Below are positions 1 through 7,700 of a DNA stretch of 24,268 nucleotides, piece by piece (the first letter of the stretch is position 1; every line of letters begins with the position of its first letter). The DNA is from a virus, in IMG/VR virus record IMGVR_UViG_3300017776_000182, positions 1 through 24,268 of that record. One strand, given 5' to 3'. The notes under the pieces were generated by a model. It worked only from the letters and a program-made list of their open reading frames with translations. It had not been told where the DNA came from and did not search any database. A program made the position numbers and the translations under genes.

Positions 1-711
1 CACCTTGAGAACCCTTTGGTCCTTGTGCACCTTGAGCCCCCGTAGGACTTGCACCTTGAGCACCTTGAGAACCTTTAGGACCTTGAGCACCTGTATCACC
101 TTTAGGACTCGAACCTTGAGCACCTTGTGAACCCTTTGGTCCTTGTGCACCTGTATCACCTTTTGGACTGGCACCTTGAGCACCTTGAGAACCTTTTGGT
201 CCTTGAGCACCTTGAGCACCTGTTGGACTTGCACCTTGAGCACCTTGAGAACCCTTTGGTCCTTGTGCACCTTGAGCACCTGTTGGACTCGAACCTTGAG
301 CACCTTGAGAACCCTTTGGTCCTTGAGCACCTTGTGAACCCTTTGGACTTGAACCTTGAGCACCTTGAGAACCTTTTGGTCCTTGAGCACCTTGAGCCCC
401 CGTAGGACTAGCTCCTTGAGCACCTTGTGAACCCTTTGGTCCTTGTGCACCTGTATCACCTTTTGGACTGGCACCTTGAGCACCTTGTGAACCTTTTGGT
501 CCTTGTGCCCCTGTATCACCTTTAGGACTCGAACCTTGAGCACCTTGAGAACCTTTTGGTCCTTGAGCACCTTGAGCACCTGTTGGACTTGCACCTTGAG
601 CACCCGTAGTTCCTTTTGGTCCTTGAGCACCTTGAGCACCTTGAGGACTTGCACCTTGTGAACCTTTTGGTCCTTGAGCACCTTGAGCACCTTGAGGACT
701 TGCACCTTGTG
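1..711 (-). repeat. 60-bp tandem repeats coding collagen-like 20-residue units
   Basis: From 1 to 600 the sequence repeats with an exact 60-bp period, ten copies in register. A further 60-bp copy (601-660) and a 51-bp copy (661-711) follow. Each full unit translates on the minus strand to about five Gly-X-Y triplets (GAQ, GAQ, GPK, GSQ, GAQ) plus one five-residue step such as G-A-S-P-T. The collagen register is therefore broken by a G-x4-G interruption once per unit. Copies differ mostly at synonymous positions, so the array is constrained at protein level. Confidence 0.9.
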
Positions 712-1345
712 AACCTTTTGGTCCTTGAGCACCTTGTGCGGATGAACCTGATGAACCTTGAGCACCTTGAGAACCTTTTGGCCCTTGAGCACCTTGAGAA
801 CTTGCACCTTGAGCACCTGTAGCTCCCTTTGCACCCGTTGAACCAGATGAACCTGCCGAACCTTTTTGTCCTTTTTGTCCTTTAGCACCTTGAGGACCTG
901 TATTGTGTATTAGTAACTCACCTACAAAGTAATTATGGTCTGGTTCTACTTCGATACTTATAAGTTCTATTGGTTTTTCAACTAATTTTACTGAAGTTAT
1001 CTTTATTCCATTGAAAAATGGTGTAGTACCACATTTACAATCACCACAACCACATGATTCGTTACCGACTGGTGAAACCCATTCACCATCTTTATATATT
1101 TTTATATCGACAGAAGTTTTTAGCTCAGTTCCGTCTGAAAGTTTAATTTGTAAGTAGGAGTCGAGAGTTCTTTCCCATTTGGTTACAACCTTATTGTACC
1201 TAATGACCCCATTTTCAACATCATAACCTTTTATATAGTCACCAAGTTCAATATTAGACAAATTGATTGGAACGCCTTGTCTATTATTTACTCTTCCTTT
1301 GATGTCTACTAAGGTATCTTTATGTAATCCATGTATATGTTCCAT
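1..1345 (-). CDS. Hint (intein-like) domain fused to collagen-like fibre protein, 3' end cut by window edge
   Basis: This reading frame is open from an ATG at 1343-1345 to the left edge, at least 448 codons. The start is firm: AAGGGG lies 6 nt upstream and an in-frame TAA sits at 1349-1351. Residues 1-148 look like a Hint/intein fold: DTLVDIKG near residue 10, LGDYIKGYD at 34-42, a middle strand region at 50-85, and the intein C-terminal signature DHNYFVGELLIHN at 136-148 followed by Thr149. Residues C98, C100, C103 and C105 form a CGCGDCKCG cluster. The intein Cys1 is absent (Gly6 occupies its expected place), and the block B T-x-x-H reads T-S-V-D. From Thr149 on, the protein is Gly-X-Y collagen-like (GPQGAKGQKGQKG, then GAQ/GPK/GSQ). 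It is probably a tail-fibre or whisker-like trimeric rod. C-terminal self-cleavage after Asn148 is inferred. It follows the 276-aa fibre gene by 10 nt. Confidence 0.9.
   Translation of the reverse strand, partial: MEHIHGLHKDTLVDIKGRVNNRQGVPINLSNIELGDYIKGYDVENGVIRYNKVVTKWERTLDSYLQIKLSDGTELKTSVDIKIYKDGEWVSPVGNESCGCGDCKCGTTPFFNGIKITSVKLVEKPIELISIEVEPDHNYFVGELLIHNTGPQGAKGQKGQKGSAGSSGSTGAKGATGAQGASSQGAQGPKGSQGAQGSSGSSAQGAQGPKGSQGASPQGAQGAQGPKGSQGASPQGAQGAQGPKGTTGAQGASPTGAQGAQGPKGSQGAQGSSPKGDTGAQGPKGSQGAQGASPKGDTGAQGPKGSQGAQGASPTGAQGAQGPKGSQGAQGSSPKGSQGAQGPKGSQGAQGSSPTGAQGAQGPKGSQGAQGASPTGAQGAQGPKGSQGAQGASPKGDTGAQGPKGSQGAQGSSPKGDTGAQGPKGSQGAQGASPTGAQGAQGPKGSQG
902..1345 (-). other. Degenerate Hint/intein-like domain, C-terminal cleavage half intact
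   Basis: These are residues 1-148 of the collagen-like protein. Intein block F/G is recognisable as HNYFVGELLIHN|T, with penultimate His147, terminal Asn148 and +1 Thr149. In inteins, Asn cyclisation cuts the peptide bond at this point. Block A has no Cys/Ser nucleophile, and the gene starts only a few residues before it, so there is no N-extein to splice. The block B histidine is replaced by Asp80. The most economical reading is a Hint domain limited to C-terminal cleavage. A fully dead remnant is the alternative. Confidence 0.75.
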
Positions 1346-1355
1346 AACTTACCCC

Positions 1356-2186
1356 TTAACTAACAAAATCAAGTCTTAATATTATTGTGAAACCAAATCC
1401 CCTTGACCTGGCCGATGAACCTCTATTTACTAATAAACTTAATGGTGCACTACCACTAAATGCATATGTTGAACCAAAAGTATAGGTTGTTGGAACACCT
1501 GCGGTTGCTGAAATTGTTCCATTTACTTCGGTTGAAATATTGCCACCCTCTTCTTTCCATTGTAATCCAACAGTACCACTTGTTGCAGATTGATGTGGAC
1601 TTACAATTACTGATTCTATATATCCATCGACAGGCGCTACATATTGCCAATAACCAGTTTGAACTTCTGCATCCATTTGGTTTATATTCCCAAAAGGTGC
1701 ATATGCGGTTATTATTTCTTTTTTGAGTACCTCACCATTTGTTACAATGATTTGTTTTTCTTTTTCTGCGTCAAGTGTACCTATAATTGTAACACCACTA
1801 TTATTTACTTGTAGTCTTTTTGTACCACCTGTTTTAACTTCAAAACTATCTGCACCACCAAATCCAAATTTAGTGTTGGTATCACCTTTATGTTCAATGT
1901 ATGTTGGTATTTCTATTAGACCAGATGCGGTAATATCAACGGCAGACAAGCTTGATTTACTCGTTAATGTATTATCTACGGTAAAACTCGTAAATCTACC
2001 ATCGTTAAATGTTAGTGCTGATGTACCAACCGACCCTATATTGTCGGTTTGTGGGACAATATTCGCTCCTGCGTTAAATTGTCCTTCAAGTTGAAAACCA
2101 CCTTCGAATAATACATCCGATGAGGCGGTTACTTTGTTTAATACGGCATTACTGCCAGAAGTTATTAATTTTTTCCAATTTGGCAT
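1356..2186 (-). CDS. Tail-fibre/structural protein with WKK-SGS N-terminus
   Basis: This 276-aa protein begins MPNWKKLITSGSNAVLNKVTAS, the same N-terminal module as the 439-aa protein encoded at 4004-2685 (MATWKKVIVSGSIASLAEVSAS). The shared start suggests a common docking or trimerisation element. The middle is beta-rich with NNSG and GTL motifs typical of phage fibre shafts (residues 60-150). The C-terminal part from about residue 175 (TGYWQYVAPVDGYIESVIV onward) looks like a compact beta-sandwich head, perhaps the receptor-facing or capping domain. The ATG has an AGAGGA ribosome site 7 nt upstream and is preceded by a structured leader. The next gene, the Hint-collagen fibre, starts 10 nt after the stop. 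I recognise the type but no named family. Confidence 0.8.
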   Translation of the reverse strand: MPNWKKLITSGSNAVLNKVTASSDVLFEGGFQLEGQFNAGANIVPQTDNIGSVGTSALTFNDGRFTSFTVDNTLTSKSSLSAVDITASGLIEIPTYIEHKGDTNTKFGFGGADSFEVKTGGTKRLQVNNSGVTIIGTLDAEKEKQIIVTNGEVLKKEIITAYAPFGNINQMDAEVQTGYWQYVAPVDGYIESVIVSPHQSATSGTVGLQWKEEGGNISTEVNGTISATAGVPTTYTFGSTYAFSGSAPLSLLVNRGSSARSRGFGFTIILRLDFVS

Positions 2187-2684: not shown

Positions 2685-4004
2685 TTAAGAATAAATCCAA
2701 ATAGTTTCATCATCAGTTCTTACATTAATAGTACCTACTCCTTGGAATGTTGGAGCGGTTGTTGGATTTGCACCCGTTGAAGTCTGAATATTACCTAATT
2801 TAGAATCTATATTTGCACTAGTTGCATTATGTGCTAATTCTTCGACAAATCCGAAGTTACCAGTACCTGCGCCAGTTCTTTCCCAATAAATTGCGTGACC
2901 TGCTTGTGCAGTACCACTTGAACCACCAAATATAATACCAGCATCAGCACCAGCTGAACCAGAATTGATAAGTATGAATTGGTCTTCTACATTTAAGTTT
3001 GCAACATTTAATTCTGTTCTTGAACCTTCAACAGTTAAATCACCTGTCACTACCATATTTGCAAATTGTACATTAGAACTATTTGTTACACCTTGGTTCA
3101 TTGCACCTAAGTAACCCCATTGAGTTGCTGAGATTGTTGTTGTACCAATGTTCTCTAATTGTGCACCTTCGTCTGCAGTTAAGTTACTGATTTCAGTTAC
3201 TGATGCTGCGGAGATTGAACCTGAATGTATTCCTGCACCCAATCCTCTAACACCTGCTGCCGTAAGTGTAAATGCGTTTGCACCATCTGCTACATTTAAT
3301 ATACCTAAAACTTCTGATTTAGATAAAGCTTTTACTACACCATCTGAAGCTGCAGTTCTACCTACTATTGTGTCTGTTGCGACATTTTGTATTTTAGCAA
3401 AAGTAACACCACTATCTTTAATTCTTAGTGCGTCTGAGTTAAGTTCGATTGTTGAATCGTCAACACCTACTGCTAATGAGATAGTTCCATTACTTCCTGT
3501 ATTAGTAGTAAATGAACCACCACCTGATAAACCATTACCTGCAGTTACTGTTATTGTTGAATTTTGAACACCACCTAATGCAGATACCTGTGCTGATGAG
3601 GATACAATTCCTGCACCTAATGCTCTAATTCCTGCTGCGTCAGTTACATCTGCTCCGTTTTCAACATTAATCAGTTCTAATACATTTGCTTTAGTTAATG
3701 CCGATGGAGCTGCAGTGTCCCCTGTTATATTACCTAAGATTGTATTGTTTGCAATACTTTCTATTTTTGCGAGTGTTACACCACCATCTTTTATACTAAT
3801 AGTTTTTCCCGCCGCACCATCATATGTGGTACCCGAGTTAAGTTGGATTGTCGAATTATCTACTGTAAGACTATTTCCAACTTGAGTTGCTGTTGTTGCC
3901 GTTGTTGCGTTTCCGACTAAATTACCTTTGAATCCTACTGATGCAGAAACTTCGGCTAAACTAGCTATCGAACCCGAGACAATGACTTTTTTCCATGTTG
4001 CCAT
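2685..4004 (-). CDS. Tail-fibre-like repeat protein, 439 aa
   Basis: The start ATG 4002-4004 has AAGGGA 9 nt upstream. The protein opens with the WKKVIVSGS module shared with the 276-aa fibre protein. It contains two copies of a module of about 100 residues: G-x-T-I-x-I-K-D-G-G-V-T-L-A-K-I ... LELINVENGADVT ... GIRALGAGI, repeated as LRIKDSGVTFAKI ... LGILNVADGANAF ... GVRGLGAGI. An N-terminal NATTATTA stretch is fibre-shaft-like. The C-terminal 120 residues (VTGDLTVEGSRTELNVANLNVEDQF, GIIFGGSSG, YWERTGAGTG) look like a fibre tip or head-binding region of the kind found in phage tail fibres. It is probably a trimeric fibre subunit. Confidence 0.8.
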   Translation of the reverse strand: MATWKKVIVSGSIASLAEVSASVGFKGNLVGNATTATTATQVGNSLTVDNSTIQLNSGTTYDGAAGKTISIKDGGVTLAKIESIANNTILGNITGDTAAPSALTKANVLELINVENGADVTDAAGIRALGAGIVSSSAQVSALGGVQNSTITVTAGNGLSGGGSFTTNTGSNGTISLAVGVDDSTIELNSDALRIKDSGVTFAKIQNVATDTIVGRTAASDGVVKALSKSEVLGILNVADGANAFTLTAAGVRGLGAGIHSGSISAASVTEISNLTADEGAQLENIGTTTISATQWGYLGAMNQGVTNSSNVQFANMVVTGDLTVEGSRTELNVANLNVEDQFILINSGSAGADAGIIFGGSSGTAQAGHAIYWERTGAGTGNFGFVEELAHNATSANIDSKLGNIQTSTGANPTTAPTFQGVGTINVRTDDETIWIYS

Positions 4005-4791: not shown

Positions 4792-7700
4792 TTATGGTGC
4801 TGACGCTGAGTCAGGCATTAAATAATATCTTGAGTTATTTGTATTTTCACCTTCTGCAAAAATCATTCCCCATCTTGTATATCCTTCTACTGCATTTTCA
4901 GTATTGAAATAATATACACCTGTTCCAATTGTACCAGGTATTGATGAGTCTTTTGCATATACATAGTATTCGTTTGCAGTACCCGTACTATCCGGCGGTA
5001 CTCCATCATACATACTTACAGGTTTACCACCTTGATTCGATGCTGATGGGAATACTACTACTAATCTTTTTGAACCACCACTACTAAAGTTTATATATCC
5101 AAAACTTGATAGACCTGTTGCGCTACTATCTGATAGTGTTGTTTTTGAACTACTTCCAAATAATTGCATTGTACCACCAACATATGTTGGACTGAATGTT
5201 GTACCAAGTGAACCACTTTGTAATTTTGCAATTACTGAACCTGCTTCGATTCCTACTCCATCACCACCACTATCACCCATAGATGCGATTGCAGCTGCTT
5301 CACTTGCCGCAGAACCACCATCCCAACCATAAACATATGTTTTCGCTACAGGGTTAAGAATTGTTATACTTCTATTGTAACTTGTTGACTTATCAAAGTT
5401 GTCAAATACTGATGCGCTATAATTGTAAGTAACACCACTACTGATTATGCCTGTATTTTGTAGTTGATATGATGATGAGTTTGCATTTTGTGGTACAAGT
5501 TTTAAATTACCTGCGTGTGTTCCACCTAATGAAGCTGAGAATGGTGTATCCGATTCTGTATCTGATATAGTAATCGTTGTAAGATTAGTTGATGCCGCAA
5601 CTGATGCGGTCATGTTTGCACCTACTTCATTAAATGTTGCAGTTGGTGCTTGGTTTGCGAATACATTTACTGTTACCGAACCACTTCCTATATTATCAAA
5701 TTGGTCTCTGTATGTTATTGTTGATGTAATTGCATCACCACTACCTGTACTTGAACCACTAACATGAACTTTCATTGTTAAGTTACCACTATTGTTAATA
5801 CCAATTGCGGCGTTGGATGATGTAAATGATTGAACTGCGGCTGAGTTATATTGTGGTGAATAACTTACTGTTAATTGAGATGCGTTACCATTTCCAAACC
5901 CAGTAGCGTCTCTAAGTACAGAACCACTAACTGCAGATTCTATAATATATGATGTTGTATCACCACCTAAAGTACCGATTGGTGATTGAGCGATTGTTAC
6001 ACTATGTTTAGTAGTACCTGTTCTAAATCCATGACTATCTTTTATAGATGCCGTCATTTGATAAGCAGAACCACTTAAATTATTTTTTGGTTGTACTAAA
6101 TAAGTATCACCAGATTTATATGCATTTAATTGACCACTTGGGTCTGTAAAAGTAAATGAAGTATGGTTTAGTGAATCACTTTCTGTATCTGTAAATGATA
6201 TTGTTGAAAGTGTACTTCCACTTCTTGCACCATTTGTATTTAAGTTTGCAGATGTGTTACTGAAACTTGGAACTGGTGCATTATTGATAACAACTGATAT
6301 ATTTTGATTTACATATTGTTTAGTTGTTTCGAATCCATGCTCTGATGCAGTTAGTTCTACTGCAATTGTACTTCCACTTGCGTATGCCGAACCACTTAGG
6401 TTATTTGCAAGTTCTAATGTTGTTGAAGAACCCGTTGCACTTGTTAATGTAATTAAATTACCTGTTGATTTAACTTCCCATCGTTGAGATGCCGCTGATG
6501 ACCATTGTGCACTTGTTCCTGTTCTACCATTTGAGATAATTTTAATATCATCACCACTTGTTGCAGATTCTATAACATATAAGTTACTCCAATTATCAGA
6601 TATTGAGCTTGCCGCGTCATCTGCGATATTAATTCTAATTAAACCTGTATCAGATGTTGTATTAAATGCGTCTTTTACTGTTACTTGGTAAAAATATCTA
6701 TTTGCAACATCAGAATTTAGATAAACTCCATTCCTTCTTGTTACAACACCTGCAGAACTACATTGGAATGGATTAGAATGTGGGTCATATAGTGAATTAC
6801 CACCTAAAGATGAGGTAATATTTGAACCACCATCTAAATTTGCTTCTTTTAATGTAAAATTACTAAATACAATAGTATCACTCGTTGGGTCTGTTGCGGT
6901 TATTGTACCAACACTTGCACCATTACTACTATTTTCATTAATACTACCCAATGTTTGGTCATTTACTGTTGGACTTATGTTATCAACAACTTTTATTTGG
7001 AATGGTAAGTATGCAATTGCTTCAGTATCATCACCACTTACATAGTGTTCATCACTTGCAGTTAAAACTAACTCATATTTTGGTGTAGTTTCATAATCCA
7101 ATGATGATGTTGTCTGATTTAACTGAACATATGTACTTGCTTTAGTAATTGTAAATCCACTTGGGACTGAACCACTACCAATTGTGATTGTATCACTCTC
7201 ATCATCGGTGAAATAAACTCTAACTTTGTTACTTGCCGCTGCTGAGTTTTCGTTTAGTGATTGTGTAAATGTAGTTACCACAGAACCACCGACTGATGTT
7301 TGTCTCCACTTCGGTGGAGTGTTAGGTGTTACCCTAATGTATATTGTTTTTGAACCAACACCTGCGAATGTATCTACTGCTTCTACTAAGAATGGATGTG
7401 AACCACTACCTGGTGTATTATCAGTATTTAATGATGCCGTTGATTTTGTATTTAGTGTTATAGCTCCATTTGATGCTATTCTAAATTTATCTGCCGTATA
7501 AGAACTTGCAGTTCTAAATGTAATCGATTGTCCTTCTGCGTCTGTTGCACTAACAGTTCCAACAGAAGACCCACTTGCTACAAATTCACCAATTGTAAAT
7601 CCAGTTGTACTAATTGATGGTACTGTATTTGGAAAGAATACCTTTTCAACAAAGTCTGATAAAGAAGTAGTTGTTCCAAAGTTATTATTGTAAACACCTG

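Follow-up and report, generated by a model that had tools for sequence, protein, structure and literature searches.

The fibre gene and its relatives

The window analysed here is the whole of IMG/VR record IMGVR_UViG_3300017776_000182, a virus record of 24,268 bases, and its gene content as assigned with PHROGs is T4-like, with terminase, portal, head protease, major head protein, PhoH, and a baseplate-wedge/tail-fibre connector. On its minus strand an open reading frame starts at the ATG in 1345-1343 and continues with no stop up to the window edge, encoding an N-terminal domain, here called Hint1, and then Gly-X-Y repeats that match the collagen family PF01391 (E 1.5e-25). These repeats, lying in a structural gene region with T4-like head and tail neighbours, identify the product as a collagen-like phage fibre. 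The features, all on the minus strand, are the following:

2..898, minus: Gly-X-Y collagen-like fibre, truncated by the window edge
899..901, minus: Thr149, residue +1, the proposed new N-terminus (sequence, codon table)
902..907, minus: His147-Asn148 of block G, the proposed cyclising Asn and its helper His (alignment)
935..937, minus: His137, block F position 13 (alignment, codon table)
956..958, minus: Ser130, block F position 4, equivalent to Asp107 of gp41-1 (alignment)
1103..1114, minus: block B, Ser78-Val-Asp-Ile81, with the B:7 Ser kept and the B:10 His lost (gp41-1 alignment)
1328..1330, minus: Gly6, the position of the intein Cys1 (sequence alignment only)
902..1345, minus: Hint1 domain, residues 1-148 (profile and predicted fold)
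1352..1357, minus: AAGGGG, a ribosome-binding-like stretch preceding the ATG (read from the sequence)
1356..2186, minus: upstream gene, 10 bases before the fibre ATG, without a Pfam match

The start codon and the junction are both as an earlier sequence-only reading of this DNA had described them. The fibre ATG is preceded by AAGGGG-TAA-GTT, in which the TAA is an in-frame stop immediately 5' of the reading frame, and AAGG lies no more than 20 bases 5' of the start in 19 of 21 relatives (the exceptions being L016 and L017); at its other end the domain closes with HNYFVGELLIHN|T, with Gly-X-Y directly after. The upstream gene begins with MPNWKK, similar to the MATWKK with which the gene at 2685-4004 opens. 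Given that the window edge falls within the Gly-X-Y repeat, the fibre C-terminus and the next genes are visible in relatives only. Several relatives likewise have their contig end inside Gly-X-Y, as the window does at base 1, and such repeats may break assemblies.

A complete Hint1 head was found in 31 other viral contigs, gathered by four protein-guided scans of viral contigs (one of which went through a neighbouring gene) and by a scan with a DNA pattern (30 contigs), and the most distant aligned row is 36% identical to the window. This count leaves out L024, which ends after 44 residues, and L145, where an apparent intein near 6001, ending VVVHN|C, lies inside a glycosyltransferase-like gene; another intein C-terminal block, ILVHN|C, was seen in one of the several ORFs making up the nrdA region of Klebsiella phage KP13-7 (L046:1-6111). 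The junction and N-extein were read in 30 of the 31 complete relatives (all except L137), and all 30 have HN|T-Gly-Pro and then Gly-X-Y, an identity by which a misassembled junction was rejected. The Hint-headed collagen-like fibre belongs to a group of aquatic tailed phages. A pattern scan of bacterial and archaeal genomes gave 59 matching stretches, none coding a Hint1 relative, and three Hint1 queries and one query from the second Hint domain described below (Hint2) found no close match among 50,697 records of isolated phages, the best being the C-terminal Hint of Yersinia phage fHe-Yen9-02 (E 1e-4, 32% identity). Microcystis phage Mel-JY01 and Flavobacterium phage immuto, chosen for having the most similar tail sheath among named isolates in the matches listed, had no Hint1 match in a comparison that contained no positive genome. 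The sheath of L048 resembles in part that of phage immuto. Some hosts may be Bacteroidota; the protein at L102:16360-19320 has a C-terminal end resembling what we take to be a Bacteroidota secretion signal.

The Hint fold and the lost splicing half

From profile matches and a predicted fold, residues 1-148 can be assigned securely as a Hint (intein-type) domain with blocks A, B, F, and G. In Pfam, the Hint-type models stay below cut-off for the window protein, the top one being PT-HINT (PF07591), with 21.1 bits against a gathering cut-off of 27.7, and PF07591 matches 11 of 14 members at E up to 1 (best E 2e-5). A profile of 14 sequences searched against the PDB matched BIL2 (5e-8), the gp41-1 intein (5e-7), and a bacterial intein-like domain (5e-6), and a profile of 16 sequences matched BIL2 6y75 at E 2e-9 and gp41-1 at E 3.5e-7. 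The AlphaFold2 model of Hint1 (pLDDT 74.9, pTM 0.70, with residues 1-9 below 50) resembles BIL2 with a Foldseek E of 8.9e-9 and the BIL structure 2lwy with Z 14.4 over 129 aligned residues at an rmsd of 2.3 A, so that the Hint-like character proposed from the letters is supported by profiles and predicted fold together, the fold unlike Hint that would have spoken against it being no part of the prediction. A Pfam match to Metallothio_Euk (E 0.00095) was discarded, as it arises from a Cys-rich loop that is missing in 10 of 16 aligned rows; this loop, CGCGDCKCGT, occupies residues 98-107 (window 1025-1054) and occurs in the window's clade.

The position of the first intein residue is held by Gly in 12, Ser in 4, and Ala in 3 of 19 sequences, with Gly in the window. 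This placement takes Gly6 as Cys1 by a five-residue extrapolation from Thr11, which pairs with the block A Thr of gp41-1, and the structural alignments start at residues 3 to 12, nearer 9-11 for many inteins, a stretch in which the model is poor; the window protein is free of Cys in its first 97 residues, and therefore lacks a Cys nucleophile whichever placement of position 1 holds. The missing block A nucleophile was thus correctly read from the sequence. Class 1 inteins have Cys or Ser at position 1, which the window lacks, while four relatives do have Ser. For block B, the earlier placement at Thr77-Ser-Val-Asp80 has to be moved to Ser78-Val-Asp-Ile81 according to the gp41-1 alignment, and its conclusion that the block B His is gone stands, with B:10 being Ile 8, Ala 4, Ser 4, Leu 2, and Val 1 in the 19 sequences and never His. 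The statement that no N-extein exists has to be given up, since a vestige of five residues precedes position 1 in the window, and 3-7 residues do so in 30 complete relatives (ATG starts counted); this is far from a class 1 intein, which interrupts a host protein and has a substantial N-extein. An intein with its N-half in another gene was rejected because Hint1 aligns to whole inteins. Right before the Cys1 position, Ile4 and His5 (window 1328-1336 for Ile4-His5-Gly6) are invariant in 19/19 despite the near-absent N-extein, and for His5 and His8 a role in metal binding, or in place of the missing block B His, is conceivable.

With Cys1 and the block B His gone and the N-extein all but lost, Hint1 might be taken for a recent, decaying, and functionless intein insertion. 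Against this, the F/G block residues are invariant down to 36% identity to the window, and Hint1 is under purifying selection, with dN/dS of 0.05-0.27 for 11 of 12 pairs (dS being saturated, at 2.4, in one of these) and 0.53 in the twelfth, a near-identical pair, so that this reading is largely refuted and we give it hardly any credence.

Conservation at the junction and a second Hint domain

In all 19 distinct Hint1 sequences, His at F:13, His at G:6, Asn at G:7, and Thr at +1 are invariant while their codons vary: His137 is CAC in 13 and CAT in 6, His147 is CAC in 10 and CAT in 9, Asn148 is AAC in 13 and AAT in 6, and Thr149 has four different codons (the codon set and the aligned-residue set, 19 sequences each, differ by one member, L140 in the former and L003 in the latter). 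The ending of class 1 inteins, a C-terminal His-Asn and then Ser, Thr, or Cys, is therefore present as HN|T in 19/19, and a loss of this motif in relatives, which would have weighed against the sequence-only reading, was not seen among them. Invariance is concentrated in the last 20 residues, 15 of which are invariant against 21 of 129 elsewhere (Fisher p 2.6e-7; 14 distinct sequences, namely the window and 13 relatives), so the C-terminal Hint motif is not due to chance. Apart from Thr+1, the residues kept are those that excerpts of PMC4031507 name in connection with Asn cyclisation.

Another change, absent from the earlier reading, is the loss of the block F Asp, replaced here by Ser130. According to the same excerpts of PMC4031507, Asp F:4 hydrogen-bonds Asn G:7 in structures, with no cyclisation until the earlier steps are complete, and, as PMC12245125 reports, Asp107 of gp41-1 limits C-cleavage, D107G speeds it about tenfold, and D422G of Mtu RecA likewise raises it. 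The latter paper states that gp41-1 excludes Asp, Glu, and Pro at +1 and accepts Thr, that with D107G Pro is the sole +1 residue not tolerated, and that Thr at G:5 makes gp41-1 efficient; G:5 of the 19 Hint1 sequences is Val, Leu, Ile, Phe, or Met and never Thr. F:4 is Ser in 19/19, encoded by AGT in 15, TCA in 3, and TCC in 1, and given that a shift between AGT and TCA or TCC needs at least two base changes, Ser at F:4 itself seems to be selected.

An invariant Ser130 drawn from both Ser codon families, the invariant Ile4 and His5 before position 1, and a Thr that is an accepted +1 nucleophile (excerpts of PMC4031507) could together mean that class-3-like splicing persists, with Ser130 as nucleophile and a tiny N-extein ending in Ile-His joined to Thr149. 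We regard this as very improbable, for class 3 has Cys at F:4 (PMC4031507, as excerpted) where Hint1 has Ser in 19/19, the THN prevalent in class 3 (PMC12245125) is not found here, the block B His is missing, and the joining of a few residues seems pointless.

The evidence from the junction has to be read with some care, for in the copies read the Gly-Pro after Thr149 is as invariant as the Thr itself, and the start of the triple helix, and not cleavage, may be what keeps Thr at +1, which lowers the confidence in cleavage and raises the rival explanation that the Hint fold is an unreactive structural head, capping the trimer or tying the fibre to the tail, with HN surviving through packing. 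This rival also draws on a second fibre. The next gene in relatives (L006:9446-12424, L015:9754-12405, and equivalents in L048-L053, which in the window would lie beyond base 1) encodes another Hint-like domain, Hint2, then a linker, and then Gly-X-Y. The model of Hint2 (pLDDT 88.0) matches the BIL2, Mtu RecA, and Hedgehog Hint folds, while a profile comparison relates Hint1 to Hint2 only weakly (probability 26.6%, E 7e-4), so that it is fold and position that speak for their common origin. In 15 aligned Hint2 sequences, F:13 is Asp in all 15, G:6 is His in 14 and Arg in 1, and G:7 is Asn in all 15, and in 16 distinct ones (L019, with Val+1, lies outside these) the +1 residue is Phe 4, Pro 4, Ala 3, Ser 2, Asp 1, Arg 1, and Asn 1. 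To judge from these residues, Hint2 probably does not react, at any rate in the copies with Pro at +1.

HN alone thus proves nothing for cleavage, as Hint2 keeps it where cleavage is unlikely, and its conservation is weaker evidence than it seems; the earlier proposal of a Hint domain reduced to C-terminal self-cleavage, which the fibre may shed once folded or trimerised, keeps the backing of fold, residue pattern, and conservation and loses part of what HN had lent it. An unreactive head is favoured by the Hint2 domains having HN with Pro+1 in 4 of 16 and without the F:13 His, by the one with Arg for the G:6 His, by the Thr-Gly-Pro that could be kept for the helix, and by the fibre N-terminus offering no other candidate for an anchor. 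It is opposed by the F:13 His and Thr+1, which look specially kept in Hint1, by contrast with Hint2, and which in 19/19 sequences complete the full set for Asn cyclisation. We consider an unreactive head unlikely, but with enough in its favour to be taken seriously.

A fibre made without its Hint from an internal start near the junction was rejected, since in 13 complete fibres the first in-frame ATG, GTG, or TTG after the junction comes not before codon 192; it lies at codons 192, 239, 290, and 329 in four fibres, from which shorter products are possible, and at codon 647 or beyond in nine.

A proposed self-removing cap, its neighbours, and known systems

On balance, we favour as probable that Hint1 is an intein-like descendant without splicing, kept as a one-shot C-terminal self-cleavage domain, that is, a removable N-terminal propeptide. 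Regarding the cleavage, its timing, and its use, we infer the following course. After translation Hint1 would fold, and Asn148, aided by His137 and His147, would attack its own carbonyl to form a succinimide, breaking the bond to Thr149, so that the Gly-X-Y fibre is left with Thr149 as its N-terminus and the Hint departs. Ser in place of Asp at F:4 would lift the restraint that in splicing inteins ties C-cleavage to the prior N-terminal steps, and one use could be to keep the fibre end from assembling too early. By analogy, a domain in which the Asn, two helper His, and a tolerated +1 remain would correspond in nature to the C-cleaving inteins obtained by engineering. Against cleavage, Ile4, His5, and Ser130 are invariant though plain C-terminal cleavage does not need them, G:5 is not the Thr that makes gp41-1 efficient, and a cleaved fibre starting in bare Gly-X-Y needs another anchor.

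After the two collagen genes come a 2OG-Fe(II) oxygenase, a GT2, and a GT4 with an OGFOD2-like domain (L048:4681-8280 and equivalents), and oxygenase and glycosyltransferases are possibly a fibre-modifying set. Pfam on members of two loci gave PF13640 in both oxygenases, PF00535 in the one GT2 tested, and GT4 plus OGFOD2-like in both. Among the best 80 of 122 oxygenase-anchored loci, a Gly-X-Y ORF ends less than 200 bases upstream of the oxygenase in 77 (30 of them showing their start, 47 running open to the contig edge), the other three being L103, with such an ORF at 261 bases, L125, on too short a contig, and L102, with none in 10 kb; tandem Gly-X-Y ORFs are visible in 20 of these 80, and a GT2-like motif lies no more than 2.6 kb downstream in 67. 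No Hint-less fibre was found among the 27 distinct N-termini (10 of Hint1 and 17 of Hint2 type) of fibre ORFs with a visible start at these best 80 of 122 loci. The Y position in 12 fibres is mostly Gln, Thr, or Lys, with Pro once among the listed residues of one fibre, and Lys at Y ranges from 8/285 (L016) up to 87/252 (L006), being in L023 outside the seven commonest of 341. With Lys so variable, action as a lysyl hydroxylase is conceivable on some of the fibres but cannot be general. A larger picture would be a viral procollagen pathway with two Hint-capped fibre precursors. The first cap would take the part of an N-propeptide and cut itself off by Asn cyclisation, and the 2OG-Fe(II) oxygenase, GT2, and GT4/OGFOD2-like enzymes encoded next would hydroxylate and glycosylate the fibres; this pathway we find doubtful, the more so as Lys is nearly absent from the Y position of two fibres.

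If self-removal of Hint1 is true, phages have made a dedicated self-removing cap for a structural fibre out of a self-splicing element, which gave up the N-terminal half of its chemistry together with the Asp restraint on the C-terminal half, and this would be a protease-free route to phage fibre maturation. The earlier remark that no phage collagen-like fibre matured this way had been described agrees with the open-licence literature, in which, among the papers listed, we found no Hint-headed self-cleaving phage collagen-like fibre, no combination of Hint domain, collagen-like, and phage, and no self-cleaving fibre; papers that bring together intein-like elements, collagen, and bacteriophage were, to judge from their listing, on other subjects; in excerpts of the papers on phage tail inteins or Hint domains, terminase or reductase inteins and reviews appear and no such fibre, and those of PMC7029224 place collagen repeats among pelagimyophage structural proteins and mention no intein.

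Several known systems come close to the Hint1 fibre in part. In Erwinia phage Y3, Yersinia phage fHe-Yen9-02, and Alcaligenes phage Afa-NA1, Gly-X-Y and Hint likewise occur in one tail-region protein, but in mirror order, with the Hint near the C-terminus, Cys1 and the block B His kept, and 10-12 residues after HN. Such proteins, with internal Gly-X-Y and a C-terminal Hint, lie at L043:2966-4408, L044:2996-4432, and L045:3017-4447. The C-terminal self-cleaving intramolecular chaperones of phage tailspikes are folding domains that remove themselves from a fibre, with another fold, end, and chemistry than Hint1. A-type BIL domains have the Hint fold and the C-terminal His-Asn in common with it, and the nearest structures are those of the BIL domains 2lwy and 6tmm/6y75. 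A-type BIL domains reportedly, in the 2004 work of Dassa, lack a nucleophilic +1 residue, whereas Hint1 has Thr+1 in 19/19, its His-Asn motif resembling theirs. Excerpts of PMC7765530 report that A-type BILs cleave their C-terminus without ligating; the fibre Hint1 differs from them in lying at the very start of its protein, in its Gly, Ser, or Ala at position 1, in the invariant Thr+1, and in having a phage collagen-like fibre as partner. The PT-HINT (PF07591) of polymorphic toxins lies right before the part to be released (excerpts of PMC3482391), as Hint1 does before the fibre, the former preceding the C-terminal toxin in long secreted proteins and the latter being itself the N-terminus. 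Lastly, gp41-1 and other mini-inteins, with the C-cleaving variants that have been engineered from them (C1A; F:4 Asp to Gly), have the same fold and block order, and Hint1, almost without N-extein, with the block B His lost and with Ser rather than Gly at F:4, carries natural changes at positions that engineers alter in gp41-1-type mini-inteins (PMC12245125); should it cleave as proposed, it would stand as nature's version of the C-cleaving inteins made for purifying proteins, and its relatives a natural library of such domains.
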